Origin: Acidihalobacter ferrooxydans
GTDB taxonomy: Bacteria; Pseudomonadota; Gammaproteobacteria; DSM-5130; Acidihalobacteraceae
Assembly: GCF_001975725.1 (NCBI RefSeq)
Contig: NZ_CP019434.1
Span: forward strand, 2,191,486-2,255,485
DNA: 64,000 nt
Direction of reading: 5' to 3'
The notes beneath the pieces were generated by a model. It made no database searches. It was given only the letters and a program-made list of their open reading frames with translations, and had not been told where the DNA came from. This document shows positions 21,849 through 63,001 of the stretch, one piece after another; the first letter of the stretch is position 1; every line of letters begins with the position of its first letter. The position numbers and the translations under genes are program-made.

Positions 21849-24202
21849 TTCAGCAATCCCTTGAACCATTCGAGCGCCCGGCGCGTCGCACTGACCTGAC
21901 AGGATGACGTGCCGCTCGGCTCGCTGCCCTTGATAAATGCCATCCACTGCGCACCGGGACAATAATCCTGTGTGCGCAGGCCGGTTTGCGGATCGATGGT
22001 TGTCCATGTCACATCGGCGGGCTGCGTGATGTGCAGCGATTGCGCATTGATGCCGCGCATGATCGCCGCCCAGATCGGCAGTGCGCCGGTCGCACCGGTC
22101 AGACCGGCCGGGCGGTTGTCATCCCGGCCGACCCAGACCACCGCGACGGCATTGCCGCCAAAACCGGCGAACCAGCTATCGCGCAAGTCGTTGGTCGTGC
22201 CCGTTTTCCCGGCCACTTCCAGCCCCGCCGGCAATAGCGTCTTGAGCGACCTGGCCGTACCCCGCCGGGTCACGTCATGCAGCGCCGCATCGAGCAGATA
22301 TACCGCGCTTTCAGGCGCGGCGCGTTCAATCTTGAGCGGGTACCGCTGCAGCGAGTTGCCGCGCGGATCGACCACCGTCTGGATCGCCCGCAACGGCGCC
22401 CGATAACCGCCCGCCGCCAGCGTCTGGTACATCTGCGCAACCTCCAGCGGCGGCACCGGCACCGCGCCGAGCAGAATCGCCGGATACTCGGCTATCGGCT
22501 GCTTGATCCCCAGCGCGTGCGCCGTCCTGATGACTGCCGGCAGCCCGAGATCGAGCCCCAGGCGTGCGCTGGATACGTTATAGGAGTGCACGAGCGCATC
22601 CATCAGCGGGACCTTGCCGTGATTGCGGCGATCATAATTCAGCGGCGACCACACCTGCTGCCCCTGCCCCGTGCGCACGTGCAGCGGCGAATCGTCCAGC
22701 AGCGTCGCCAGCGTATAGCGCTGCGGCTGCTCCAGCGCGGTCAGATAGGTCGCCGCCTTGAACAGCGAGCCGATCGAGCGCCGCGCATCGAGCGCCCGGT
22801 TGTAACCGTCGAAATTCGCCCGCCGCCCGCCAACCACGGCATACACCTCGCCGTTCTCGACCGAGGTCACCACCGCGGCCGCCTCCAGGGTGTCGCGCTT
22901 GATGTCGCGCCGCGCTTCCAGACGCCGCAGACCCTGATCGACCGCCCGCTGCGCGGCGACCTGCACCAGGGGTCGCAGCGTCGTGTAAATCACCAGCCCC
23001 TGCGTGCGCAGATCCTGCGCGCGGTAGTCGCGCCCCAACTGCCTGCGCACCAGATCGAGGAAATCCGGAAATGGCGTGACGCTGGACGGCGGCTTCGCAA
23101 TCACGCCGAGCGGCGCGGCTTGCGCGCGGCGCAGGCTGGCCGCGTCAAGCTCTCCGGCCGCGTGCAATTCGCGCAGCACCCGATTGCGACGCGCCAGCGC
23201 ACGCGCGGGATGGCGGCGCGGGTCGTAATACGTCGGCCCGCGCACCAGCGCGACCAGCAGGGCGATCTGCGCCGTATCGAGCTGCTGCACCGGCTTGCCG
23301 AAATAAAACTCGCTGGCCAGCCCCACCCCGTGGATCGCGCGCTGCCCGTCCTGCCCGAGATAGACCTCGTTGAGATACGTTTCGAGAATCGTGCGCTTGT
23401 CGTAATGCAGCTCAAGCAGCACCGCCATGATGGCCTCGTTGAACTTGCGCCACAGGCTGCGGCGATTGCTCAGGTAGAAATTCTTGACCAGCTGCTGAGT
23501 CAGCGTGCTGCCGCCCTGCACGAAACGCCGCGCGCGCAGATCGACAACCAGCGCACGGCCGATGGCGACCGGATCGACGCCGTGATGCAGGTAAAAGCGC
23601 CGATCCTCGACCGCTACCAGCGCCTTGGGCAACAGCGGCGGCAGTGCGTCCAGGCGCACCAGAATCCGGTCTTCGTGCGACAGCGGGTAGATTTTCGCGA
23701 TCAGTAACGGGCTGAGCCGGGCAAGCGCGACTGTCCGACCGGATACCGTCGACACACTGGCAACACGCCCCTGCGCAAACCGCACGGCCAGCGTGCGCGA
23801 AGGCTCGTTTCCGTCCGGTGAGGTGAAACCGCGGGTATGAATCAGATAACCGTCGCCCTGCACGGCGTAGGTGCCGGGCTGCGCCGCGCCCTTGCCGGTG
23901 CGCTCGAATTTGAGCAGCCGCAGCGCACGGCCGACGGCAGCCGCGTCGAGCCGCGCACCGGCGTACAACTCAAGCGGCGCAGCGTACACCCGCGCCGGCA
24001 GCGCATAACGCTTGGCCTCGAACTGACTGGTAATCAGATGATTAAGGTAGGCGACATAACCCCCGACACCGGCAGCCATGACGGCCAGGACCGCCAGCGC
24101 CCACCACAGCCTGCGGCGCGGGCGGCCGGAATGGCGACGTTGAGCTGCAGTACGGGCGGGCTTGCGCGAGGATCGCTTGCGCGAACGGGCGGATTTTGCC
24201 AT
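21845..24202 (-). CDS. mrcB: penicillin-binding protein 1B
   Basis: A bifunctional peptidoglycan glycosyltransferase and DD-transpeptidase of 785 residues. It has a basic cytoplasmic tail, one membrane helix (about 33-53), the UB2H-like region typical of PBP1b, the GT51 domain (VEDRRFYLHHGVDP, GGSTLTQQLVKNFYLS) and the transpeptidase domain with SIGSLFK, SYNVS and KTGTTND as the SxxK, SxN and KTG motifs. It is the first gene of the run ending in truD. The kinase fusion gene starts 73 bp away on the other strand, so the promoters are divergent. Confidence 0.95.
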   Translation of the reverse strand: MAKSARSRKRSSRKPARTAAQRRHSGRPRRRLWWALAVLAVMAAGVGGYVAYLNHLITSQFEAKRYALPARVYAAPLELYAGARLDAAAVGRALRLLKFERTGKGAAQPGTYAVQGDGYLIHTRGFTSPDGNEPSRTLAVRFAQGRVASVSTVSGRTVALARLSPLLIAKIYPLSHEDRILVRLDALPPLLPKALVAVEDRRFYLHHGVDPVAIGRALVVDLRARRFVQGGSTLTQQLVKNFYLSNRRSLWRKFNEAIMAVLLELHYDKRTILETYLNEVYLGQDGQRAIHGVGLASEFYFGKPVQQLDTAQIALLVALVRGPTYYDPRRHPARALARRNRVLRELHAAGELDAASLRRAQAAPLGVIAKPPSSVTPFPDFLDLVRRQLGRDYRAQDLRTQGLVIYTTLRPLVQVAAQRAVDQGLRRLEARRDIKRDTLEAAAVVTSVENGEVYAVVGGRRANFDGYNRALDARRSIGSLFKAATYLTALEQPQRYTLATLLDDSPLHVRTGQGQQVWSPLNYDRRNHGKVPLMDALVHSYNVSSARLGLDLGLPAVIRTAHALGIKQPIAEYPAILLGAVPVPPLEVAQMYQTLAAGGYRAPLRAIQTVVDPRGNSLQRYPLKIERAAPESAVYLLDAALHDVTRRGTARSLKTLLPAGLEVAGKTGTTNDLRDSWFAGFGGNAVAVVWVGRDDNRPAGLTGATGALPIWAAIMRGINAQSLHITQPADVTWTTIDPQTGLRTQDYCPGAQWMAFIKGSEPSGTSSCQVSATRRALEWFKGLLK

Positions 24203-24275
24203 GCGGCGGTTTGTCAGCGGAGAAAGGTGCGATTATCCTTGTCGCCCTCCCTCATCACAAGGATCAGGAGTACGC

Positions 24276-25820
24276 GTGCCGGACCTCTCGCTATTACTCG
24301 CCGGCCTGAGCCGGCCCGAAGCCTACCCGCATCCCGTCGACGAACTGCGCCTCATCCAGACGCACATCTCGGCGGTGTTGCTGACCGGCCCGTACGCCTA
24401 CAAGCTCAAAAAGCCGCTCGACCTCGGGTTTCTGGACTTTTCCACCCCCGAACGCCGCCGCCATTTTTGCGCGGAAGAACTGCGCCTGAACCGGCGCCTC
24501 GCGCCGCAACTCTATATCGACGTCCTGCCCGTCACCGGCAGCGCCGAAGCGCCCCGGATCGGCGGCTCGGGCGAACCCATCGACTACGTGCTGCGCATGC
24601 GGCAATTCGACCCCGAACAGCAACTCGACCGGATGCTTGAGCGCGGCGAACTCGACACCTCGTTCATCGACCGGCTGATCCCCAGGATAGCGGAGTTCCA
24701 CGCGGCGGCGGCCGTCGCGCCCGAAGACAGCGACTACGGCAGCCCCGAAACGGTGTTCGCCCCGATGCAGCAAAACTTCGATCAACTCCGCCCCCTGATC
24801 GACGACCCGGCGCAACAGGCGCAACTCGCGCGTCTCGAAGCCTGGACGCAGAGCCAATACGCCGCACTCAAGCCCCTGCTCGCCCAACGCCATGCCGCAG
24901 GGCATGTGCGCGAATGTCACGGCGACATGCACCTGGGCAACATCACACTGATCGACGGCGAAATCGCCATCTTCGACGGGATCGAATTCAATGCCGATTT
25001 CCGCTGGATCGACGTCGCCAACGAAATCGCTTTCCTGGTCATGGACCTGGCCAGCCGCGGCGCGCACGAACTGGCTCGGCACACGCTCAGCGCGTGGCTG
25101 GCAACCACGGGCGACTACGCCGCCCTGCCACTGATGCGCTTCTATCTCGCCTACCGCGCAATGGTGCGCGCCAAGGTCGCCAGCATCCGCCTCGGCCAGC
25201 CCGGACTCGACACCGCCGAACGCGACGATATCCTCGCGGCCTACCAGCGCTATGCCGATCTGGCCGAACGCTACACCGCAGCGGGCGAACCGGCGCTGAT
25301 CATCACGCACGGCTTTTCCGGCTCCGGCAAAACGACGGTCAGCGGCCACGTCGTCGACGCCCTGGGCGCGGTGCGCGTGCGTTCCGACATCGAACGCAAG
25401 CGCCTGCACGGCATGAATCCCGCAGCCGACTCGCACTCCGACCTCGGCAGCGGACTCTATGCCGCCGCCGCCACCGAAAAGACCTACGCCCACCTGCTCG
25501 ATCTGGCCGACACCATCATGCGCGCAGGCTATGCCGCCATCGTCGATGCCACCTTCCTCGACCGCGACCAGCGCGAGCGCTTCGCGGCACTGGCCGCCGA
25601 ACGCGCATGCCCGTTCCTGATTCTCGCCGTGGCAGCGGACGAGGCAACCGTGCGACAACGCCTCCAACTGCGCCACGGCGATGCCTCGGAAGCGAACGCC
25701 GCGGTCGTGGCGCACCAGCGTCACCATGCAGACCCGCTGGGCGACGACGAACCTGTGATCACCGTAGACAGCGCGGCACCGCTACCGCTGGCGACAATTG
25801 AAGCGCACCTGAAACGCTAG
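24276..25820 (+). CDS. APH-like kinase fused to a P-loop AAA_33 kinase
   Basis: A 514-residue two-domain protein. The N-terminal part (about 1-330) is an aminoglycoside-phosphotransferase-like fold with the Brenner-type motif ECHGDMHLGNITL and IAIFDGIEFN. The C-terminal part (about 345-510) has a Walker A motif GFSGSGKTTVSG and resembles small-molecule P-loop kinases (RVRSDIERKRLHGM, VDATFLDRDQRERF). The fusion is a known family (COG2187 plus COG0645) without a settled substrate. I chose the GTG at 24276, 5 bp after AGGAG; an upstream ATG at 24162 overlaps mrcB. Confidence 0.85.
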   Translation: MPDLSLLLAGLSRPEAYPHPVDELRLIQTHISAVLLTGPYAYKLKKPLDLGFLDFSTPERRRHFCAEELRLNRRLAPQLYIDVLPVTGSAEAPRIGGSGEPIDYVLRMRQFDPEQQLDRMLERGELDTSFIDRLIPRIAEFHAAAAVAPEDSDYGSPETVFAPMQQNFDQLRPLIDDPAQQAQLARLEAWTQSQYAALKPLLAQRHAAGHVRECHGDMHLGNITLIDGEIAIFDGIEFNADFRWIDVANEIAFLVMDLASRGAHELARHTLSAWLATTGDYAALPLMRFYLAYRAMVRAKVASIRLGQPGLDTAERDDILAAYQRYADLAERYTAAGEPALIITHGFSGSGKTTVSGHVVDALGAVRVRSDIERKRLHGMNPAADSHSDLGSGLYAAAATEKTYAHLLDLADTIMRAGYAAIVDATFLDRDQRERFAALAAERACPFLILAVAADEATVRQRLQLRHGDASEANAAVVAHQRHHADPLGDDEPVITVDSAAPLPLATIEAHLKR

Positions 25821-26145
25821 GCAGTGTCTCATCGTGTCACCCGGACAATCCACTGGATGAGGCAGGCTTGCGTGTTTGGCGGGTATTATTCGACTTTCAG
25901 TCGGGTGATTATGCGTTCTGAGAGGATGTTGGTTTGCGAGATCCGAACCCGATTTGCGTGGCGGCAATAACCCCCTAATGAGGTTGGGTTTTTGCCCGAT
26001 AACCAAGACAATATCAGCTTATCAGAGCCTCACAGGCATTGATAAGTTGATATTGACCGGCAAATCAGGCATTTTTTCCTGAAAATCCGGTGAATATGCA
26101 CTTATCAAGGCATAATTGCCTGATAATAAATGGTTAGCGGTGAAA
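25821..26145. other. intergenic boundary of the AT-rich island, with palindromes
   Basis: This 325-bp gap marks the change from GC-rich host DNA to an AT-rich island. At 25839-25852 is ACCCGGACAATCCA, the end sequence of family A, without a recognisable rest of the element. At 26009-26024 and 26040-26055 is a 16-bp inverted repeat (CAATATCAGCTTATCA, 15 of 16 matching). At 26102-26126 is a second, bulged one (TTATCAAGGCA/TTGCCTGATAA). The motif TTATCA/TGATAA occurs four times. No complete attC could be built here. Confidence 0.55.
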
Positions 26146-26571
26146 ATGAACGAAGCAAAACCAAAGAAAAAGAGAGTTGATGGTCAAGTAACAGGGCTGG
26201 CGGGAGAATTTTTTGTCGCTGGTGAGCTGCTAAAAAGAAATCTGCAAACATCCATCACTTTCGGCAATGCGAAAGCAATAGATATTTTTGCGCACAGCGA
26301 AGAATCAGGAATCACATACACGGTTCAAGTGAAATCACTACGGTCAAAAAATTACTTTCCGCTCAAAAGATCAGCGATAGTTGAAAGCCAAATATATGTC
26401 TTTGTCATCTTGAACAAGCCTGGAGTTCAAACACAATATTTCGTAGTAGAAGGTTCTGTTTTGGCTTCTGCTACCGAGGAGTTGGGCAAATACCTCGATG
26501 ATCCCAAGTTTCCTGGTATTGGTTGGAGGGCTTTGGAGCCTTTTCAAGATAATTGGCAGGTATTTAAATGA
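26146..26571 (+). CDS. cassette gene: PD-(D/E)XK nuclease-fold-like protein
   Basis: A 141-residue protein of unknown function. The N-terminus is Lys-rich (MNEAKPKKKRVDGQ). Then come AGEFFVAGELLKRNLQTSI, AIDIFAH and YTVQVKSL, which have the order Glu ... Asp ... Gln-X-Lys expected of a PD-(D/E)XK fold. Similar short proteins are annotated as group I intron endonuclease-like or hypothetical. A catalytic role is inferred from these residues only. The ATG at 26146 is chosen; an in-frame TTG at 26116 is less likely. The gene is much more AT-rich than mrcB or sqr, and its stop is 5 bp before attC site 1, as in an integron cassette. Confidence 0.7.
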   Translation: MNEAKPKKKRVDGQVTGLAGEFFVAGELLKRNLQTSITFGNAKAIDIFAHSEESGITYTVQVKSLRSKNYFPLKRSAIVESQIYVFVILNKPGVQTQYFVVEGSVLASATEELGKYLDDPKFPGIGWRALEPFQDNWQVFK

Positions 26572-26576
26572 ATTCC

Positions 26577-26691
26577 GCTAACAAGTACATCCAGCCGACC
26601 CACAACTCCGCGCGGCTTATTGCGCATGGCTGCGCCATTGTTGCGCAAACGCCGCACTCCGTTGCGGTCGGTTGATGTTGAGCGTTAGGGC
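26577..26691 (+). other. attC: attC-like recombination site 1 of a gene cassette
   Basis: A 115-bp imperfect palindrome runs from GCTAAC to GTTAGGGC. The outer arms GCTAACAAGTACATCCAG + CCGACC and GGTCGGTTGATGT + TGAGCGTTAGG pair when folded (TAAC/GTTA, ACATC/GATGT, CCGACC/GGTCGG) with unpaired bases between boxes, as in attC R''/L'' and L'/R'. The 3' core G^TTAGG fits the crossover consensus except for its last position. It lies right behind a cassette-sized ORF. Confidence 0.78.
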
Positions 26692-26712
26692 TAAAAAGGA
26701 GACATACAGTCA

Positions 26713-27498
26713 GTGACAAAACATACAGCATATGATTTTCCAGACCTCTTTCGTGACTTTGCTTTAATGCCGAAGTTTGATGAGAACATGGAAACACTGA
26801 AGGAAATGGCTGAGCCAGAGGATTGGGATTATAAAAACACTGAGCAACACCATGATCACCCAGTTCTTAGAAATTACATCACCTACACATACAGGCGTGT
26901 TGCAGAAGAGAAAAAGATCGCCGTAACTACTGATGAAGAATATTGCTGTTGGAATTGCGGTTTAATTACTAAAAGCCAAGAGCCCATATTTCTATTATTT
27001 AGCAAAAACAAACTAGATCACTCAGACCCGTATTGGCACTTCTGGAAATTTGTTCGCAAAGGCGAATGGGATCTAAATAGATTCTCTTCTCTCCCCGAGA
27101 TGCCTCACTATTTTGAAGATCCATCAGTATTGGTGTTTGACACAAGAAAAGATTTGAGAATCAATGTAGAGCATGTTGTAGCCGACAATCTAAAACGCTT
27201 CCCGACTGCCTTGCAAAGCATGAATCCATACGGCTTGCAAAATATCGTAAAGGGGTCAATTGATTCTGCCATAGAGCGGGTTAAGCGCAACTACAAAACA
27301 GCCATACCACAGTATTATCAAGGCAGCATTCAGTTGCTTCTTCCTCTTAGCCTTACCGATCCTGGGAAAGCTGATTTGGCGCTAGTGGTAGAAAGGTTTT
27401 CTGACTTCTACAGGGCATCAACATGCTTAACATTGGATATGGCGTACAACAATGCAAGGCAATTGGCTAGGCCCGATCGTGATTGGCTTGCACCATAG
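26713..27498 (+). CDS. cassette gene: DUF3825-domain protein
   Basis: The 261-residue protein has a GTG start at 26713 and AAGGAG about 11 bp upstream. The central and C-terminal parts match the DUF3825 pattern: HPVLRNYITYTYRRVAEEKK, CWNCGLITKSQEPIFLLF, YFEDPSVLVFDTRKDLRIN and HVVADNLKRFP. The last ~70 residues (QGSIQLLLPLSLTDPGKADL and LDMAYNNARQLARP) are also typical. The biochemical function of DUF3825 is not known. The gene is AT-rich and lies between two attC-like sites, so it is a complete cassette. Confidence 0.78.
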   Translation: MTKHTAYDFPDLFRDFALMPKFDENMETLKEMAEPEDWDYKNTEQHHDHPVLRNYITYTYRRVAEEKKIAVTTDEEYCCWNCGLITKSQEPIFLLFSKNKLDHSDPYWHFWKFVRKGEWDLNRFSSLPEMPHYFEDPSVLVFDTRKDLRINVEHVVADNLKRFPTALQSMNPYGLQNIVKGSIDSAIERVKRNYKTAIPQYYQGSIQLLLPLSLTDPGKADLALVVERFSDFYRASTCLTLDMAYNNARQLARPDRDWLAP

Positions 27499-27509
27499 TG
27501 GCATATATA

Positions 27510-27580
27510 GCCCTAACCAGGCGCTCCACCCGACCAAAAACCGCTTTGCGGTTTTCGTCGGGTGAGCTAGGTCGTTGGGC
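27510..27580 (+). other. attC: attC-like recombination site 2 of a gene cassette
   Basis: A 71-bp site running from GCCCTAAC to GTTGGGC. GCTCCACCCGAC near the 5' side pairs with GTCGGGTGAGC near the 3' side, and the outer R boxes GCCCTAAC and GTTGGGC pair with each other. The loop is a short AAAACCGC/GCGGTTTT hairpin. GTTGGGC fits the crossover consensus GTTRRRY exactly. It starts 11 bp after the DUF3825 stop codon. Confidence 0.85.
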
Positions 27581-27635
27581 GTAATAATAAATGAAGCAAC
27601 TTTGGTTTACGTCAGGAAAGTTTAAGCCACTTCCC

Positions 27636-27677
27636 AAAATTGGGGTCAGGTCTTGCAATCAAGCATTATTGTTTAGA
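27636..27677 (+). repeat. 42-bp direct repeat, copy 1
   Basis: The 42 bases starting AAAATTGGGGTCAGGTCTTG and ending TTATTGTTTAGA recur without mismatch at 28351-28392. The two copies flank the parDE genes. After copy 1 a half-site (GTACAACATTAGGC, around 27702-27715) looks like the 3' arm of an attC whose 5' arm is missing. Confidence 0.85.
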
Positions 27678-27711
27678 ATACGCACCTGCACGACCCGAAT
27701 TGCGTACAACA

Positions 27712-28017
27712 TTAGGCGGGAAAAGCTGCCTGATTAACATCCATGCTTTTGTGAAGGACACGGATCACTTGAATTTCGGTGTCTGCAAGATAAACAAGAT
27801 AAAAAACCACATGGCTTTGAAAGGGATACTTGCGCAAGCCTGGTTCAATGTAATCACAGACACTTCCCAGTTTTGGAGAGGCAGCCAGCATCCGGAAGGT
27901 TTCGTCCAGTCCTTTCAGGTAATGCATCCGTTGTGCTCGGCCCCAACGTTCCTCGGTGAATTTGGCAATTCCACGCAAATCATTCCTGGCTGCTTGGGTA
28001 AGAGAGAATGCCCTCAT
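27712..28017 (-). CDS. parE: ParE/RelE-type toxin
   Basis: A 101-residue toxin of the RelE/ParE superfamily (FSLTQAARNDLRGIAKFTEE, GLDETFRMLAASPKLG, RKYPFQSHVVFYLV, IQVIRVLHKSMD). ParE toxins inhibit DNA gyrase. The ATG at 28017 follows the parD stop by 10 bp. It is transcribed against the cassette orientation, which is common for toxin-antitoxin cassettes because they carry their own promoter. It is intact. Confidence 0.9.
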   Translation of the reverse strand: MRAFSLTQAARNDLRGIAKFTEERWGRAQRMHYLKGLDETFRMLAASPKLGSVCDYIEPGLRKYPFQSHVVFYLVYLADTEIQVIRVLHKSMDVNQAAFPA

Positions 28018-28027
28018 CAACTGCCTG

Positions 28028-28267
28028 TTATTTCAATTCGTTATCAAGTTCGGCCATAAACGATTCGTAGCTGTATTCAGCTATTCCGCTGGCTCGGCCC
28101 TCAGCAATCAGCTGACGCAATGTTTCCAGTTTCTGCTCTTCATTCTCAAGAAGGCGCAAGCCCGCCCGCACTACCTCGGTCGCTGAGCCATAGCGCCCCG
28201 TCGAAAGTTGAGAGGCAATGAACTGGTCGAAATGGTCTCCCAAACTAACACTGGTGTTTTTCGCCAT
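28028..28267 (-). CDS. parD: ParD-type antitoxin
   Basis: A 79-residue antitoxin with an N-terminal ribbon-helix-helix (KNTSVSLGDHFDQFIASQLS and SATEVVRAGLRLLE) and a C-terminal toxin-binding tail. The ATG at 28267 (MAKNTSV) is the family start. It is upstream of parE, the usual order, and the palindrome at 28286-28302 just upstream is a likely operator for autorepression. Confidence 0.92.
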   Translation of the reverse strand: MAKNTSVSLGDHFDQFIASQLSTGRYGSATEVVRAGLRLLENEEQKLETLRQLIAEGRASGIAEYSYESFMAELDNELK

Positions 28268-28285
28268 TGGGGCAATCCTCAAGAA

Positions 28286-28302
28286 ATACCAATATTTGGT
28301 AT
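28286..28302 (-). promoter_or_regulatory. putative parDE operator palindrome
   Basis: ATACCAATATTTGGTAT contains the inverted repeat ACCAA-TAT-TTGGT about 20 bp upstream of the parD start. The site is AT-rich and overlaps where a promoter would lie. Autoregulation by ParD is known for the family; this site is an inference from symmetry and position. Confidence 0.5.
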
Positions 28303-28316
28303 ATATTGCGGAAAAC

Positions 28317-28342
28317 GCCTAACAAGTCAATCCATCCGGCAC
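28317..28342 (+). other. truncated attC 5' arm beside parDE
   Basis: GCCTAACAAGTCAATCCATC followed by CGG has the form of an attC R''-L'' arm (GCCTAAC core). No matching 3' arm with GTTAGGC follows; eight bases later the second 42-bp repeat begins. This looks like a cassette recombination site cut by the repeat. Confidence 0.5.
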
Positions 28343-28350
28343 CTTATGCA

Positions 28351-28392
28351 AAAATTGGGGTCAGGTCTTGCAATCAAGCATTATTGTTTAGA
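28351..28392 (+). repeat. 42-bp direct repeat, copy 2
   Basis: Identical to the 42 bases at 27636-27677, in the same orientation, 715 bp apart. It marks the right edge of the AT-rich cassette island; GC-rich host sequence resumes about 50 bp further on. Confidence 0.85.
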
Positions 28393-28474
28393 CCACCCAA
28401 CCTCATTACTCGCGCATTGATTACTGGCTCACCGGGCGCCGCAGCGCATGCCTCAATCACGCGCAGAGGTTCTT

Positions 28475-30436
28475 CTAGCCCGCCTCCAGCGTCTCGCGCA
28501 GCGCCGCGAATTCGCCCAGGGCATCGGGATTAGCCAGCGCGTCGATGTTGCCCACCGGGCGTCCGTGGATCATGTCGCGCACTGCGATCTCGGTGATCTT
28601 GCCGGAAATCGTGCGCGGGATATCCGTGACCTGTTCGATGCGGGCCGGGACATGGCGCGCTGTCGTATTGGTCCGGATTAGCTGCCTGATACGCTCGCGC
28701 AGGGCGTCGTCCAGCTCCAGCCCGTCGCGCAGGCAAACGAACAGCACGATGCGCACGTCGCCCTTCCACTGCTGCCCGACCGCGACGGATTCGAGCACCT
28801 CGTCGAGCTGCTCGACCTGACGATAGATTTCGGCGGTGCCGATGCGCACGCCGCCAGGGTTCAAGGTCGCATCCGCGCGTCCGTAGATGATCACGCCGCC
28901 GCGCGGCGTGATCTCTATGAAATCGCCGTGCGCCCACACGCCAGGAAAACGCTGGAAATACGCCGCGCGGTATTTCACCCCGTCCGGATCGTTCCAGAAC
29001 CCCACTGGCATGGCCGGAAACGGCGCCTCGCAGACCAGTTCGCCCGGTGCGCCGCGCACGGGCTGCCCGCGTTCGTTATAGGCCTCGACCTTGAGCCCCA
29101 GGCCGCGACATTGCAGCTCACCGCGGTACACCGGCAACAACGGATTGCCCAGCGCGAAGCAGGACACGATGTCCGTGCCGCCCGAAATCGACGCCAGCAG
29201 CACATCGCGCTTCACGTCGCGGTAGACGTAGTCATAACTTTCCGGCGCCAGCGGGGAGCCGGTCGACAGTACCGTCCTGAGCGACGACAGCCGGTGAGAC
29301 TCGCGCGGCCGGACACCCATTTTCTCCACTGCCGCCAGCCATTTCGCACTGGCCCCGAATATGCTGACGCCGGTTGCGTCAATCAGATTCCACAACACGC
29401 TGCCTTTCTGCCGCAGCGGCGATCCGTCGTAGAGTACGATGCACGCGCCGGTGGCCAGCCCCGACACGAGCCAGTTCCACATCATCCAGCCGCAGGTCGT
29501 GTAATAGAAAATCCGGTCATCGTGCTTGAGATCGGTATGCAGCACCAGTTCCTTGAGATGCTGGAGCAGCGTGCCGCCCGCGCCGTGCACGATGCACTTC
29601 GGCACTCCGGTCGTACCCGATGAATACAGGATGTACAGCGGATGCGCGAACGGCATCTGGGCGAACTCGATACGTCCGGCGTCGTGCGCACCGACGAACG
29701 CATCCCAGGCTACCGCGCGCGGCCAATCCGACAATGCAACCGGCGCGCCCGAATAGGCCACGACCACGATCCGTTCAAGCGTGGGAAGCGCTGCCGAGAC
29801 TTCGCGCACCCTGTCCAGATAAGCATGCGTTTTCCCGCCGTAGGGATACGCGTCCGCAGCGAACAACACCTTGGGCTGAATCTGGCCGAAACGATCCACC
29901 ACGCTCTGCGCGCCGAAATCCGGCGATGTCGACGACCAGATCGCCCCCAGCGACACCGTCGCCAGCATTGCGATCACCGTCTCCGGCAGATTCGGCAAAT
30001 AACCGGCGACGCGGTCGCCAGGGCTGACACCCGCCTGCCGCAATGCCGCGACAAGACGCGCCACTTGCGCATACAGCTGGGCATGGCTGAACTCGCGCGC
30101 ATGCCCCCACTCGTTGCGGAACACGATTGCCGGCGCATCGCTGCGGTGGCGCAGCAGGTTCTCCGCGAAATTCAGCCGCACGTTCGGATACCAGTGCGCG
30201 CCGGGCATGGCGTCGCCGTTGACCAGCACCGGCGTTGGCTCACCGACCGCCCGCACGCCGCAGAATTCCCACACCAGCGGCCAGAACTGCTCAGGCTCGC
30301 GGACGGAAAATTTCCACAACGGCGCATAGCGGACCATATCCACATTGCCCGTGCGCTCGCGCACGAAGCGCACAAACCGCGCCATATTCGAGTTTTCACT
30401 GCGCCGCGCATCCGGCCGCCAGACGGGTTCTTCCAT
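28475..30436 (-). CDS. acetoacetate-CoA ligase (acetoacetyl-CoA synthetase)
   Basis: A 653-residue ANL-superfamily enzyme that activates acetoacetate with ATP and CoA. N-terminal MEEPVWRPDARRSENSNMAR and WKFSVREPEQFW are typical of acetoacetyl-CoA synthetase. The adenylation motif is YSSGTTGVPKCIVHG, followed by TTCGWMMWNWLVSGL, the ATP-site SISGGTDIVSCF and the C-terminal lysine motif ISGKITEIAVRD. It suggests use of ketone bodies or polyhydroxybutyrate breakdown products. It is monocistronic here, with long gaps on both sides. Confidence 0.92.
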   Translation of the reverse strand: MEEPVWRPDARRSENSNMARFVRFVRERTGNVDMVRYAPLWKFSVREPEQFWPLVWEFCGVRAVGEPTPVLVNGDAMPGAHWYPNVRLNFAENLLRHRSDAPAIVFRNEWGHAREFSHAQLYAQVARLVAALRQAGVSPGDRVAGYLPNLPETVIAMLATVSLGAIWSSTSPDFGAQSVVDRFGQIQPKVLFAADAYPYGGKTHAYLDRVREVSAALPTLERIVVVAYSGAPVALSDWPRAVAWDAFVGAHDAGRIEFAQMPFAHPLYILYSSGTTGVPKCIVHGAGGTLLQHLKELVLHTDLKHDDRIFYYTTCGWMMWNWLVSGLATGACIVLYDGSPLRQKGSVLWNLIDATGVSIFGASAKWLAAVEKMGVRPRESHRLSSLRTVLSTGSPLAPESYDYVYRDVKRDVLLASISGGTDIVSCFALGNPLLPVYRGELQCRGLGLKVEAYNERGQPVRGAPGELVCEAPFPAMPVGFWNDPDGVKYRAAYFQRFPGVWAHGDFIEITPRGGVIIYGRADATLNPGGVRIGTAEIYRQVEQLDEVLESVAVGQQWKGDVRIVLFVCLRDGLELDDALRERIRQLIRTNTTARHVPARIEQVTDIPRTISGKITEIAVRDMIHGRPVGNIDALANPDALGEFAALRETLEAG

Positions 30437-54421: not shown

Positions 54422-55404
54422 CCCTGCCTCCTGACGCGCTGCCTCGCTCCATACCACGACAACAGTCTGCCGAGCATCTTCACTATCCGTGGCGGGGCGC
54501 TGAAGTCCTCCGCTTTACCTGTTTTCCCAATAAGGCCGTCCCAAATACCCCGATAAACCGCATCTGCCCGATCATAAAAACCATGCCTGAGCAATTGATC
54601 GAGATTATCGTTCAACCTTCTTTCAACTGCCCACATAATGGTTTTCCATGATGCGTGACATCGATTGCGCATAAATAATAATTCGTTTCTTGCATTGTAA
54701 TAATGCCAGTATATAGGTCTCTCGCTCCATTGAGGACTGCAATGATAAACGCCCACATTCGCTACAACTTTCGCGGTATAACCGGAAAGGTTGACTCTAT
54801 AGCTGAAATCAATATCCTCCCAGTACATGAAATATGTTTCATCCAATAGGCCGATATGCTCGATCAACTCTCTCTTAATAACAAGTGCCGTGCCATCCAG
54901 CCATATCCGATTTGGATGTGTTTTTTCCATTTCCTTGAATTGAGCATAATCATAAGCACTATGCATCCACCCATTGTTATCTATATATCCGCCAGAAAAG
55001 CTAACCTCATCAGAATCAGGCTCATACAATAAGGGCGTAGCCATTGCAATATCCGGATGCTCTTCTAAATAGCTGACCACTTCTTCAAGCACATCATCCC
55101 CAGGTATCTTCAGGTCGTTATTCAAAATCCACACATAATCGCATTGGTTTTCACGGAGGCAGCTACTGATTCCAAGGTTCATTCCATAAGAAAACCCCCC
55201 GTTTATCTTCGATTTAATGATTTTGTTTTCTGGCAGGAATGCCAACAATTTTTCCTGTTGATCTATGTCTGAACAATTGTCTACAACAAGTATTTCATGG
55301 GATGGGCAGGTCTGTGCCGCGAGTTGCCGGTACAGTTTTATCGTTTCCTCGGATTTGTTGTAGTTCAATATGATTGATGTCACCATTTTCTGTTTTGAAA
55401 TCAT
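54418..55404 (-). CDS. glycosyltransferase, GT2 rhamnosyltransferase-like
   Basis: A 328-residue GT2-family protein with TSIILNYNKSEETIKLYRQL, EILVVDNCSDIDQQEKLL, GGFSYGMNLGIS and the DxD-containing YVWILNNDLKIPGDD. The acceptor-side ED motif is YFMYWEDIDFSYRVNLSG. ATG at 55404 overlaps the preceding stop as ATGA. The gene is markedly AT-rich compared with its neighbours, suggesting separate acquisition. Confidence 0.87.
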   Translation of the reverse strand: MISKQKMVTSIILNYNKSEETIKLYRQLAAQTCPSHEILVVDNCSDIDQQEKLLAFLPENKIIKSKINGGFSYGMNLGISSCLRENQCDYVWILNNDLKIPGDDVLEEVVSYLEEHPDIAMATPLLYEPDSDEVSFSGGYIDNNGWMHSAYDYAQFKEMEKTHPNRIWLDGTALVIKRELIEHIGLLDETYFMYWEDIDFSYRVNLSGYTAKVVANVGVYHCSPQWSERPIYWHYYNARNELLFMRNRCHASWKTIMWAVERRLNDNLDQLLRHGFYDRADAVYRGIWDGLIGKTGKAEDFSAPPRIVKMLGRLLSWYGARQRVRRQG

Positions 55405-56465
55405 TTCACAGCCTTTGTCATTGCATCGACCAGAATCATCGTAAGCCTGATCAACCATTCCTGATGCTTCGCGATGTTGAATTCTGCCCGGGCGGCTCGG
55501 CGCCCGATCATTCCGTCGTAGAGCCCCAACATGAGTGCCTTGTTTGCGGGCGCCCGGCCCCCTTCTTCATGCCACTTCATGATTTCCCTGATTCTGAACA
55601 GCCCCCAGAACAGGCTTTTATAGAGATCCCATCCGCAAAGGTGCTTCTTGCGCAGCAGGATCTGATTCCTGGCATCGTAATAATGGTAAGCAAGGCCGCG
55701 ATGCTCGGCGGGCACGAATCCGTGATTGATTTCGATCGATGTAACGCTTGCCGACGGGACATGCGCCTTATGTGCCCGCAGGCCAAAATCCATGTCCTCC
55801 CACTGAATAAAGTAATCTTCATCCAGCGATCCGAGTTGCCGCAGTACATCGGCCTTGATCAAGAGTGCCGTTCCCGGAAGGCAGACGACCTGGCCCTTTA
55901 CTCGCCTCGTTTCGTAATCGTCCGCATCGTTCAGCGGGGTCGCCCATAAATGCTCGTCGAAACTATAGCCATACAAGCGGCGAACCCGTTTCGGGTCGTA
56001 GTCATCCACGATGGTCGGCGTGCAAAGACCCAGATCACTGTCGATCATGGTTTTTATCAATGCCCGCAACGTATGTCCGTCTGGAACCAGCACATCGTTA
56101 TTCAGTATCCAGATGTACTCGCACGCCGTTTCCAGTGCCCGCTGGATACCCACGTTCATGCCGCCGGTAAACCCTTTGTTCGCCTCGATGCGGACAAGGC
56201 TTTCTGCGGGAATCGATCGTTCGAGCGCCTCGTACACCGGCGCTTCCGATCCGTTGTCCACCACGATCACTCGATGCTTCGCATAGTCCTGCCTGCGGAT
56301 CGTCCGAAAACATTCGAGCGGCGCATCCACTTCGTTGTACGTGAGGATGACCGAACAGACTTCGGGCTCACTCGCCGCTCCGACGGACTGGGATTTCGCC
56401 GCTGAGTCAATCCGATTGGCCTGATGCACCGCGCATGCTCTCCAGTGATTTTGGGCCGCGGCCAA
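55401..56465 (-). CDS. glycosyltransferase, GT2 family
   Basis: The product has 354 residues as drawn. SVILTYNEVDAPLECFRTIR, RVIVVDNGSEAPV, NKGFTGGMNVGIQ and YIWILNNDVLVPDGHT form the GT-A core, and YFIQWEDMDFGLRAHKAHVP is the catalytic-base segment. The ATG at 56465 overlaps the upstream gene by 59 bp; a GTG at 56429 would shorten the overlap and may be the real start. It is a paralogue of the two flanking GT2 genes. Confidence 0.85.
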   Translation of the reverse strand: MAAAQNHWRACAVHQANRIDSAAKSQSVGAASEPEVCSVILTYNEVDAPLECFRTIRRQDYAKHRVIVVDNGSEAPVYEALERSIPAESLVRIEANKGFTGGMNVGIQRALETACEYIWILNNDVLVPDGHTLRALIKTMIDSDLGLCTPTIVDDYDPKRVRRLYGYSFDEHLWATPLNDADDYETRRVKGQVVCLPGTALLIKADVLRQLGSLDEDYFIQWEDMDFGLRAHKAHVPSASVTSIEINHGFVPAEHRGLAYHYYDARNQILLRKKHLCGWDLYKSLFWGLFRIREIMKWHEEGGRAPANKALMLGLYDGMIGRRAARAEFNIAKHQEWLIRLTMILVDAMTKAVK

Positions 56466-59319: not shown

Positions 59320-59818
59320 GTGAATCCTCCGGCGCATTCTTGCCGCGCGGCATTGCCCCATGTGCCCATGAGCGTGTTATTTTGATTTTCTTCATTCGAT
59401 GCATACCTTGCCAATTCTGTTCATATGCATATCTCAACAACCGCTCAGGCCCTGTGCTGACCGCCGTGTTGGTTTTGGCTGTACATGCACACCGTTTCAC
59501 TCGTCCGCCTTGCACCAGTATTTCTGCCGACGTAGCACAGAGCGTATGTTCACTGCTAACAGCGCAGGTACGCGGCAATCTGGTAACAGCCACGGCGGCC
59601 AGGCGATGGTTCGTCCGTGTAATAAACCCGCGGTAGTTGACTCGGCGGAATACGCAACGGGGAAAAGGGAAAGTCATTCGTGGAACTGCTTTTAAGCACG
59701 CATCACCGACGAAGAATTGGCCATATCAATTGGTCTGCCAAGCCCAAAAAGGCGAGAGAATTTCTTGCATTATCCGGGCAAGTGGAATGCTCATATTTCA
59801 CAATAAATACCCTCCCTG
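59320..59818. other. gene-free gap between two glycosyltransferase genes
   Basis: The longest frame here, minus strand 59312-59677, starts without a ribosome-binding site, ends inside the next gene and has no family similarity. The piece reading GPERLLRYAYEQNWQGMHR might be a remnant of a coding region. A promoter for the downstream glycosyltransferase operon is expected but not identified. Confidence 0.5.
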
Positions 59819-60892
59819 TTAAGCCGGCACAATTGGCGTCAATTCTGAAACAAGCTTGTTCAGTTGAGCCTCTACATTATGATTCGTATCGTAAGTTTCG
59901 CTTGCCCTCTGACCGAGATCATCCCTGAGTTTGCCGTCTGACATCAAGGTTAGGATAGCGTTCCCCAAATCGTCGGCATCGTAAGGTTTGACCAGCCAGG
60001 CATCGTGACGGTGTGTCACATAATCCCGGATTGTGGGGACATCGGTAACAATGATTGCTTTGGCGAGGGCCATGGATTGTATAAGAACCATCTGACCAGC
60101 CGATATGTCGCTGACACCCAGCGGTATGATCACGATATCGGCCTTGGTGATTTCTCTCAAATAATTCATGCCGTAATGATTCTGCAGAACTGTTATCCTG
60201 GATCTGAATAACCCTTCCGACGTAAATGATGATGCCAGATGATCGCAAACTATTTTTATTTCAACATCAATATTCAGCATCGGATCGATTTTTTTAATTG
60301 ATGCATACAGGGTCGCATAGTCGCGTCCGGATCTACCAGCGCTGATAATAGTGAAAGATTTGTTTTTGTTGTTTTTGGCTATCTCGATCAAATTGGAACG
60401 CTGCTCCAGGTAACCAGACCAGGGAATAAATCGAAATTTTTTCTGTGCTTTCGGGAATAGTTTGGAATATCGCTCCAACTCAAGTGTAGAGTGGACGACA
60501 ACGACCGCTGCCCGATCAAGAAGAATGCTATAGTACAGTCTTCTTATAAAATTAAGGAATCGTGAATTTCTTTGCGTGAAAATAAAGCTTGAGAAAGCTA
60601 TTTGTGTTTTTTTCCGCTTTATTGAGCGCATAACCACATACGCCATGATTTCAATATCACTACCCAGAACTGCATATTCCGGCGTTGTTTTGCAAGAGAG
60701 TGAAATTGAGGCCATTTTTGCAGCACAGATAGCGAGGCGAGGGAGATTCACCAGGAGATGCTTGAGTCGACTCTGATATGACATGTCGACCCAGCATGAG
60801 AAAATCTCATGTTCGACTGAGATGCGCTTAAGCGCTCGCCCGAATTCTGTATCCCCCGCATCATTTGAGAAAAAAACCAGAAAATGAATCAT
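59819..60892 (-). CDS. glycosyltransferase, GT4-like, AT-rich
   Basis: A 357-residue GT-B-like protein. The N-terminus is MIHFLVFFSNDAGDTEFGRA; FTIISAGRSGRDYATLYASI marks the start of the C-terminal domain; IVIIPLGVSDISAGQMVLIQ and AKAIIVTDVPTIRDYV form the donor-binding region. Similarity to GT4 is weak at the N-terminus. The gene is one of the most AT-rich in the window, indicating a recent foreign origin. Confidence 0.75.
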   Translation of the reverse strand: MIHFLVFFSNDAGDTEFGRALKRISVEHEIFSCWVDMSYQSRLKHLLVNLPRLAICAAKMASISLSCKTTPEYAVLGSDIEIMAYVVMRSIKRKKTQIAFSSFIFTQRNSRFLNFIRRLYYSILLDRAAVVVVHSTLELERYSKLFPKAQKKFRFIPWSGYLEQRSNLIEIAKNNKNKSFTIISAGRSGRDYATLYASIKKIDPMLNIDVEIKIVCDHLASSFTSEGLFRSRITVLQNHYGMNYLREITKADIVIIPLGVSDISAGQMVLIQSMALAKAIIVTDVPTIRDYVTHRHDAWLVKPYDADDLGNAILTLMSDGKLRDDLGQRASETYDTNHNVEAQLNKLVSELTPIVPA

Positions 60893-60952
60893 GCATAAAA
60901 CCTGATGAATTATGAAGCCGCTGATTTCAGACCAGACTGTTCTTGACTGATT

Positions 60953-63001
60953 TCATTCGCCCATAGGCACGATCCAGTATTGCGGAGTCCCCGCACGACT
61001 GGTTTTTGAGATAAAAGGCGCGCCACTCTTAGCGAGCCATTGATACGCTGAAAGAGCTTCCCTGGAACCATCCACATTGTAAATTGATGCCAAGGCAGCA
61101 AGTCGCACCATACCGTAATAACCGCGACTGTGCTTCCAGCCGTTGCCATTGGCTTGTCCCATGGCCTCGGTAACTTTGCGAATCTTTGCCCATGTTTTGT
61201 ATTGTTGCTTGGTTTTTGGGTTGTAGACGAACAGGTTGTAGGCGATACCGTCGCGGGGGTTCCAGCCCTTTTGCGGCTGCAGGCTACCGGCCAGAAAGTG
61301 CGTTTGCCATTGCAGCACGCGCTTCGCTCCGGGAATTCCAAGGCGCGCGATGGTTGCCATGGTGGTAGCGAAAAAATCCTGCTGCCAGGGCGCCATCGCT
61401 CCCGAGTGCCCATAGGTGCCCGGCACATAGCCATACGCTTCGCCCTCCGCGCGAGTCCATTCGGGGATGCGCTGCTCCATGTAATGCACGTTATTGAGCA
61501 AAATTTTGCGAAAATATCGGCCGAAATATGAGTCCGCCGGATTAGCCCAGGCGGCGTAGGCCACCTCCCTCAGGCTCCAGGCCGCGCCCCTGACTTGTGC
61601 GCCGGTACCGACCAGAATGCCTTTGCCGTTTTGGCGCGGCGAAGGCCACTGCCCCAGAATTGCGTACAAAGCCTCGGCATTGAGTTGATCAAGGTAATAA
61701 CGTCGGCCGGTGAGCAGATAAGGGATGTAGGCCAGACTGGGCATGTGCGCCTTGCCGGGATGCCAGCCGTCCGAGTAACGATAGGGTTGCGTCAGCCCCG
61801 TAGTATATGAATAAGGTCCTCCGCGGGGGTCGGCCCACATATCGGGATAATCCAAAGTGGTGAGATAGTGCCCCTTGGACGGCAGGTAAAAATGCCAGGG
61901 CACCGCGCCTGCCGCGTCGGCCTGTCCCAGCGCGAAGGCCGCAGCCACGGGATTCTGGGTGATCAGCCAGATCGCGTTGCCTCCCGTCACCGGTCCGATA
62001 TCGGGGCGTCCTCCGGTCATCGGCATGTATTGCGTCACACCGTTGTTGGCCAAAGGCTTGCCCCAGCCCTTGCCGCGCAACGATTTCAATTCACCACGTA
62101 ATCCTTCGGCCGGGAGGCCATAGAGCGTTTGGTAATTGGGAATCGCCTCCAGGGCAGCCAGCCGAGGCACGTCATGCACTACATTGATCGGCGGCCACCC
62201 GGCGGAGTGCCACACTGAATGCCAGGTCTGATACTGGTATTGGGTCACTCGGCCGCTGTCATACACAGTCTTGCCATTGACCAGCAGGCGGGCCGAATAC
62301 ACGAGCGTGCCCCCCTTCGGCGACATGGCGATGTCATTGCAAAACTGGATGTCCGCCGACAACGCGCCGTTGGCATAGGCGGTCACATCCGCCACCAGCC
62401 GGAGCGAGGAAAGAACATGATGCTGGAGACGGATTTCTGTCGCCAAGGGGCCACGTCTCCAGTCATCCGCTTTGGCGCGTGCATGCTGGTACAGGGAAAG
62501 CAGATCGATCCGCATGCGTTTCGGTGAAGCCAGCTTTTTCCCGTTAACCGAATAGAAGGTTAAAACGACCCTGGGATCGTAGTTGCGCAAAACCGGACCA
62601 ACGGAAACCGCAGACGCCTCACGCACCGGGCTTGCGGGTTTACGGATAAGCTCAAGCGTCTTAATCGCTTGTGGCGCTAACGGTGCAGCTTGCACCGTCA
62701 CCACTGAGAAACGGATCGAACCGTCCGGATAATGGGTTTTTGGATCAATCTGAACCGGCACGACACCGGTACCCAGGCGAGCGGTCACATCCATCGGCTT
62801 GCGCAGGGCATTCGGCGCGAAAACGGTTCCGAACGTCAGGTAGGCGGTTCGGGTACGGTGTTTGGACGTATTTTGTAAAGCAAAAACCGCGAGATCGTTC
62901 GGTTTCGTCAGGGCGGGCAGCGGCGGCGCCTGGACCCAGTTTCCGGCCGCGGCGGCCACGGATGACAAACTCAGCAGCAAGATCGCCCATACCCAGAGCA
63001 T
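60953..63001 (-). CDS. secreted polysaccharide-lyase-like protein
   Basis: The product has 682 residues from the ATG at 63001, with a signal peptide (MLWVWAILLLSLSSVAAAAG). The N-terminal beta-rich region (FALQNTSKHRTRTAYLTFGT and VQIDPKTHYPDGSIRFSVVT) resembles exo-rhamnogalacturonan-lyase-like proteins. The C-terminal half is helical with Trp- and Tyr-rich segments (WHFYLPSKGHYLTTLDYPDM, WTRAEGEAYGYVPGTYGHSG) suggesting an alpha/alpha toroid. It may trim or release the glycan made by this locus. The open frame continues to 63394 only because it crosses repeat C3; that extension has no support. Confidence 0.65.
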   Translation of the reverse strand: MLWVWAILLLSLSSVAAAAGNWVQAPPLPALTKPNDLAVFALQNTSKHRTRTAYLTFGTVFAPNALRKPMDVTARLGTGVVPVQIDPKTHYPDGSIRFSVVTVQAAPLAPQAIKTLELIRKPASPVREASAVSVGPVLRNYDPRVVLTFYSVNGKKLASPKRMRIDLLSLYQHARAKADDWRRGPLATEIRLQHHVLSSLRLVADVTAYANGALSADIQFCNDIAMSPKGGTLVYSARLLVNGKTVYDSGRVTQYQYQTWHSVWHSAGWPPINVVHDVPRLAALEAIPNYQTLYGLPAEGLRGELKSLRGKGWGKPLANNGVTQYMPMTGGRPDIGPVTGGNAIWLITQNPVAAAFALGQADAAGAVPWHFYLPSKGHYLTTLDYPDMWADPRGGPYSYTTGLTQPYRYSDGWHPGKAHMPSLAYIPYLLTGRRYYLDQLNAEALYAILGQWPSPRQNGKGILVGTGAQVRGAAWSLREVAYAAWANPADSYFGRYFRKILLNNVHYMEQRIPEWTRAEGEAYGYVPGTYGHSGAMAPWQQDFFATTMATIARLGIPGAKRVLQWQTHFLAGSLQPQKGWNPRDGIAYNLFVYNPKTKQQYKTWAKIRKVTEAMGQANGNGWKHSRGYYGMVRLAALASIYNVDGSREALSAYQWLAKSGAPFISKTSRAGTPQYWIVPMGE

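Follow-up and report, generated by a model that had tools for sequence, protein, structure and literature searches.

Clusters of attC sites lacking an integrase (CALINs) are a standard category of integron-related element, about as common as complete integrons, and they have been proposed to be degraded integrons (PMC9024848). Their origin is unsettled, with degradation of integrons, insertion into chromosomal attG sites, and transposition as the candidate routes. The attI sites outside class 1 are not sought by IntegronFinder (PMC9024848), so that an attI retained or copied at a CALIN goes unnoticed. Here we describe an AT-rich island, positions 25959-28392 of a 64,000-nucleotide stretch (the window; G000:C1:2191486-2255485) of the complete 3.45 Mb genome of Acidihalobacter ferrooxydans. 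The island is a CALIN, because it carries two genuine attC sites, 0.8 kb apart, and the genome has no intact integron integrase gene (intI). Like CALINs in general it has two attC, single-gene cassettes with a common orientation, AT-rich, lineage-specific cargo, and no neighbouring intI, but it differs in having kept at its 5' end what is very probably an attI, here called leader C, and in that the same attI occurs at another locus. We consider it highly probable that the island is what remains of an integron platform, consisting of a retained attI with cassettes inserted at it, and that such platforms were copied and lost their intI, with use in trans being possible.

A few described systems share parts of this arrangement. 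In Shewanella prophage M16-3 a CALIN, an array without an integrase, begins with the attI that a complete integron of that genome also has (PMC9892861); that case concerns one CALIN in one prophage, whereas here there are 17 orphan leaders in three families across four genomes, including orthologous sites with different cassettes. Our literature search on duplicated or orphan attI found nothing beyond this Shewanella example. In Xanthomonas, CALINs outside the ilvD locus also occupy several fixed chromosomal places and the integrase has often been lost, but a common attI leader is not reported in the accessible part of that account (PMC12444791). The delta-attI cassettes of class 1 and class 2 integrons carry attI pieces that are out of their usual place and still usable by IntI; these are mostly short attI ends replacing attC downstream of a gene, whereas those described here are 120 to 240 bp long, lie upstream of arrays, and are without intI (PMC12901181). 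Sedentary chromosomal integrons have toxin-antitoxin cassettes, there with their own promoters, among other cassettes (PMC11023631), and a toxin-antitoxin pair is present here too, but in an island of only two or three cassettes and no integrase. The CALIN itself is thus a known entity, but dispersed orphan attI platforms without an integrase are a form that has hardly been described.

The original prediction, made from the letters of the window, placed two attC-like sites with cores GTTAGGG and GTTGGGC a few bases behind the stop codons of AT-rich single genes. Both sites (attC1 and attC2; Table 1) are real and lie within 1 base of where they had been placed; they start 5 and 13 bases after the respective stop codons, and the GC content is 42 to 46% across the island compared with about 65% in the flanks. 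To score them we used a covariance model (R1) built from 26 attC located beside genuine intI of other genomes, with zero window sequence in training. Among the 369 genomes of the class, TIGR02249 identified 136 with intact intI; the array-side DNA of 20 intI-bearing genomes was mined for attC candidates, and 26 of these were chosen and aligned (alignment A1). In this alignment the classical structure (7-bp R''/R', and L''/L' that includes one unpaired base) shows pairing in 82% of cells, compared with 65% in shuffles, and there are 93 double changes against 42 in shuffles. The R1 scan of the window returns exactly two strong matches, attC1 and attC2, both at 37 bits, and the best remaining match has 11.8 bits; the scan had been set beforehand as a possible refutation, and the scores exceed the background by a wide margin. 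In both sites one base of the 5' (L'') arm is unpaired, as is typical of attC, and single-stranded folding of the bottom strand is far better for both than for dinucleotide shuffles (0 of 200 shuffles as good). Across the whole genome R1 finds three confident attC (attC1, attC2, and G000:C1:259581-259661, with 37.0 bits) and a fourth, doubtful match of 23.1 bits. An early pattern scan with RYYYAAC/GTTRRRY was too strict and recovered neither window site, and a loosened version recovered attC2 and not attC1.

It is extremely improbable that attC1 and attC2 are palindromes lying by chance beside acquired AT-rich genes of an ordinary kind. Palindromes do occur frequently, and the minimum free energy structure of the 70-nucleotide attC2 is without its outermost R''/R' pairs, but a model independent of the window gives E values of about 6e-7 at each of the two sites, and in the same-genus genome G001 nothing matches with an E value of 0.1 or lower. 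Moreover, an 89% identical counterpart of attC2 lies inside an array of a sister-genus genome (G003), and the gene family of the second cassette is bounded by attC elsewhere, as described below.

No intI is present in the window, as had been predicted, nor is any tyrosine recombinase, and the TIGR02249 cut-off is reached nowhere in the genome. A hidden Markov model of 30 IntI proteins finds a single fossil in the genome, the last 47 codons of an IntI, at approximately G000:C1:1010462-1010602 (L019 4463-4603; E 5.7e-19); it is 1.2 Mb from the island, and is close to the C terminus of the sister-genus IntI. The fossil lies directly behind a TPR-protein-like gene. The island therefore lacks the functional intI beside attI that defines a complete integron, and its assignment to the CALINs, already part of the original prediction, is supported by the covariance scores together with the genome-wide search, which yields no intact intI and one fossil. 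We note also three consecutive tyrosine recombinase genes at G000:C1:2586034-2588449, which are like a recombinase-in-trio element.

Leader C and its copies were missed by the original prediction. The leader holds three copies of a TTGATAAGTTGATATTGACCGG-like motif, palindromically arranged, and the segment 25959-26146 has a single copy elsewhere in the genome, 188 bp long and 89% identical, at G000:C1:261354-261541, 1.96 Mb away. Homology between the two stops at GGTTAGC, the crossover core, and different cassettes lie beyond. The second copy heads locus 2 (G000:C1:259581-261541; L043 4582-6542, minus strand), in which leader C is followed by a cassette coding for a 561-residue ATPase-TOPRIM protein, the third confident attC, and a His-rich EamA transporter. 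The leader is thus constant up to the GTT core with different cassettes beyond it, as is expected of an attI, and the same rule is seen in two further leader families, A and B, of the sister genus. A distant leader C homologue in another family (G252) shares the right end, GCCTGATAATCAATAGTTA, and adjoins a stub of a divergent IntI N terminus, MSSSKSPTLLEDVRRVMRLKHYSLLT. This stub scores 15.9 bits, compared with a maximum of 12.8 among 20 shuffled sets, and its place and orientation are right for an attI, which is expected to separate a divergent intI from the first cassette. Because this homologue with the same right end adjoins an intI 5' stub, leader C is, judged from its sequence, very probably an attI whose intI was lost. 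The leader was also considered as an attC or as a cassette without an open reading frame (ORF), and this was ruled out as R1 gives no match there. Leaders B and C have zero matches on plasmids. An array of leader-C-like repeats lies beside umuDC-like genes in the metagenome-assembled genome contig JAHZJL010000249.1 (L173 110-260); it was rejected as a leader C junction, having only the repeat motif in common and being without a cassette junction or attC.

Insertion of integron cassettes at non-attI chromosomal sites (attG) is established (Loot et al. 2024, as cited in PMC12444791), and an IntI from elsewhere could have put the cassettes into such a site, with leader C being mere flanking DNA. 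That the window leader has no adjoining intI remnant is in keeping with this. However, the 188-bp leader is present twice in the genome, both times ending at the GTTA core in front of different cassettes, its homologue in another family adjoins the intI stub, and no unoccupied leader copy was found in the genome or those of the sister genus, and we regard insertion at attG as quite improbable.

The sister species provide a broader view, with leaders A and B lying upstream of integrase-less arrays. Two genomes, G002 and G004, have an intact intI (473 bits) with an attI of about 120 bp, which is leader A, and copies of leader A without intI are found at five other places. One orphan leader A site common to three species is followed by three different first cassettes. 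Leader B is about 240 bp long with a sharp left end and the right end TTTACTGTTA, conserved to TTTA(C/T)TGTTA; ten copies, full or partial, are present in G002, G003, and G004. The ten different sequences behind them include a TIR-like gene and a DNA methyltransferase, both recognised by eye, and six of the ten have an attC of at least 28 bits downstream. At an orthologous orphan site, G003 and G002 show 96% identity along 1.7 kb that includes the leader, beyond which the cassettes differ. For 12 of the 16 integrase-less attC clusters of the four genomes, a leader lies upstream on the same strand at a distance of no more than 5 kb. This count is descriptive, and a binomial chance was not taken as a test, since it was mostly beside attC clusters that the leaders had been noticed.

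We propose that the attI of the island received two single-gene cassettes, both with their own attC at the end, through the action of an IntI that was perhaps encoded elsewhere than at the leader. A reversed parDE cassette would also have been inserted, and its own attC later halved next to a repeat associated with a RAYT (REP-associated Y1 transposase). The integrase would then have been lost apart from the C-terminal fossil, and with the integrase gone the island would now be frozen, as a CALIN with a retained attI. More generally, intI-attI platforms may have been copied to several sites and intI then lost at most of them, with the orphan attI still served in trans for as long as the cell had an IntI. 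We infer recombination in trans, the copying route, and expression from the leader; duplication of a whole integron followed by loss of intI is the simplest route of copying, and the RAYT sequences at both loci provide a lead. Taken further, this bacterial family could have 'satellite integrons', dispersed orphan attI platforms lacking intI that are filled and refilled in trans by one IntI with cassettes, several of them defence-like, a single integrase thereby serving multiple sites of one chromosome, and that are frozen in the window's species following integrase loss; we offer this tentatively, as a possibility falling somewhat short of even.

Several observations weigh against the interpretation of the island as a platform remnant. 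A search for intI remnants next to the window leader, locus 2, and the type B leaders found none, and the identity of these leaders as attI consequently rests on homology, position, and junction. A consensus search found no sigma-70-like promoter in the island, leaving a Pc promoter in the leader unsupported. For four of the ten leader B copies the downstream sequence, as far as it was read, contains no confident attC, and deletion of cassettes could alternatively explain why orthologous sites differ in their first cassette. Recombination itself was not observed.

The leader-plus-cassette loci could instead have been copied whole, by a transposon, RAYT activity, or homologous recombination, the orphan leaders never having been used by a trans-acting IntI. 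RAYT sequences do flank the island, as a fossil and two 42-bp repeats, RAYT-like repeats flank locus 2, and a perfect 14-nucleotide inverted repeat, TAATGAGGTTGGGT, at 25976-25989 and 28395-28408 encloses the whole island, either by chance or as the trace of a mobile element. But the two loci have the leader in common and no cassette, orthologous orphan leaders of sister species are followed by different cassettes, no target-site duplication is seen, and RAYT-like repeats are also present away from integron loci (L044 and L045). Copying of whole loci is rather unlikely on this evidence, and retention of attI with insertion of cassettes at it is the interpretation that we prefer.

Both cassette genes of the island are directly followed by attC, as integron gene cassettes are, and for cassette 2 similar unit boundaries occur elsewhere. 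Its DUF3825 family is rare, being found in 3 of the 369 genomes, and in G126, of another genus, the DUF3825 gene lies between two attC (34.2 and 51.4 bits). Conserved synteny of the cassette genes in relatives without attC, the other possible refutation of the original prediction, was not seen; apart from these rare DUF3825 genes, relatives have only the flanking genes in common with the stretch. We note that in a viral contig (L182 1600-2790) a DUF3825 gene, 68% identical and without attC, adjoins an apparent transfer-messenger RNA 3' end, which is a usual site of prophage integration. The unit boundaries of cassette 1 were not seen repeated elsewhere; its relatives, at 59 to 76% identity, are in five viral contigs without attC, and searches of phages and plasmids gave zero matches.

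The cassette 1 protein looks like a PD-(D/E)XK nuclease when modelled. A model built from six relatives has a predicted local distance difference test score (pLDDT) of 72, with E21, D46, and Q61-V-K63 invariant in their alignment, and its Foldseek/VIA matches, of moderate strength, are almost all PD-(D/E)XK nucleases, among them a SPARDA nuclease chain (best Foldseek E, 5e-4), Hjc (best Z, 7.9), I-Ssp6803I, NhoI, and PvuII. The match to Pfam PDDEXK_5 is weak (E 0.05, under the cut-off), no solved structure matches by sequence, and a single-sequence model (pLDDT 41) was useless. A permissive Rfam scan suggested a Na+ riboswitch in cassette 1, which was rejected at 23 bits, under the gathering score; the other permissive matches are also weak, and at gathering level the island has no Rfam match.

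A role in defence for the island cargo is plausible, with functions inferred from these resemblances. The original prediction of defence candidates holds to the extent that cassette 1 is PD-(D/E)XK-like and that the locus 2 cassette protein, with a weak TOPRIM match, has Old, AriA, and GajA as its best PADLOC models (OLD/Gabija-like); it does not extend to PADLOC matches in the window itself, as cassette 1, cassette 2, and ParE have zero matches at E up to 0.01.

The toxin-antitoxin unit consists of adjacent genes of the right families, ParE and ParD, and may stabilise the cassettes. It had been predicted to be reversed and to have half-sites at its edges. The orientation holds and the right half-site, which stops only a few bases short of the second 42-bp repeat, is convincing, but the left one is a doubtful resemblance of 7 bases, too short for significance, and no complete attC bounds the unit. 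The 42-bp repeat is partly identical to the stretch preceding the RAYT ORF in L044, elsewhere in the genome. Repeats around CTTGCAATCAAGCA, from the RAYT upstream region, recur in the genome (L043, L044, and L045) and flank both integron loci. In L045 (5348-5557), tandem repeats of about 72 nucleotides lie between two RAYT-type repeats.

The two genes flanking the island are about 65 kb apart in the sister genus, and there is therefore no simple empty site for comparison. Other AT-rich dips (42 to 47% GC), without attC matches, are at about 54500-55500 and 59500-61000 of the window, and an Rfam ALIL pseudoknot at 352-468 on the minus strand (99.6 bits) is the frameshift signal of an IS3-family element.

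Table 1. Features of the island and its neighbours, in window coordinates
Feature	Position	Strand	Remarks
Kinase-like gene	24162-25820		Left neighbour of island; named by eye
RAYT C-terminal fossil	25866-25928	+	Left edge of island; 21-residue local alignment to L044 RAYT, score 47
Leader C, putative orphan attI (type C)	25959-26136	+	Ends in GTTA crossover core (GTTAGC, 26133-26138)
Cassette 1 gene	26146-26571	+	141 aa; PD-(D/E)XK-like
attC1	26576-26690	+	115 nt; R'' GCTAAC, R' GTTAGGG; R1 37.0 bits, E 6e-7; fold z -3.9
Cassette 2 gene	26713-27498	+	261 aa; DUF3825, Pfam E 1.8e-77
attC2	27511-27580	+	70 nt; R'' CCCTAAC, R' GTTGGGC; R1 36.8 bits, E 6.5e-7; fold z -4.6
42-bp repeat, copy 1	27636-27677	+	RAYT gene upstream region; left of parDE
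R'-like remnant, doubtful	27711-27717	+	ATTAGGC; left edge of parDE unit
ParE toxin	27712-28020	minus	Pfam ParE_toxin, 5.4e-19
ParD antitoxin	28028-28282	minus	Pfam ParD_antitoxin, 1.5e-30; NCBIfam TIGR02606; possible start at ATG 28267
Truncated attC, 5' half (R''-L'')	28317-28343	+	Right edge of parDE unit; GCCTAACAAGTCAATCCATCCGGCACC; 85% over 20 nt to attC1 5' arm
42-bp repeat, copy 2	28351-28392	+	100% identical to copy 1 over 42 nt
Acetoacetyl-CoA-synthetase-like gene	28475-30436	minus	Right neighbour of island; named by eye

If retained or copied attI are common, many CALINs would be old or satellite integron platforms, with one integrase for several of them, and the way in which cassette capture and expression are counted would change. 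In the sister genus, one genome combines an intact IntI with the attI belonging to it and several orphan copies of that attI, which makes the question directly testable.

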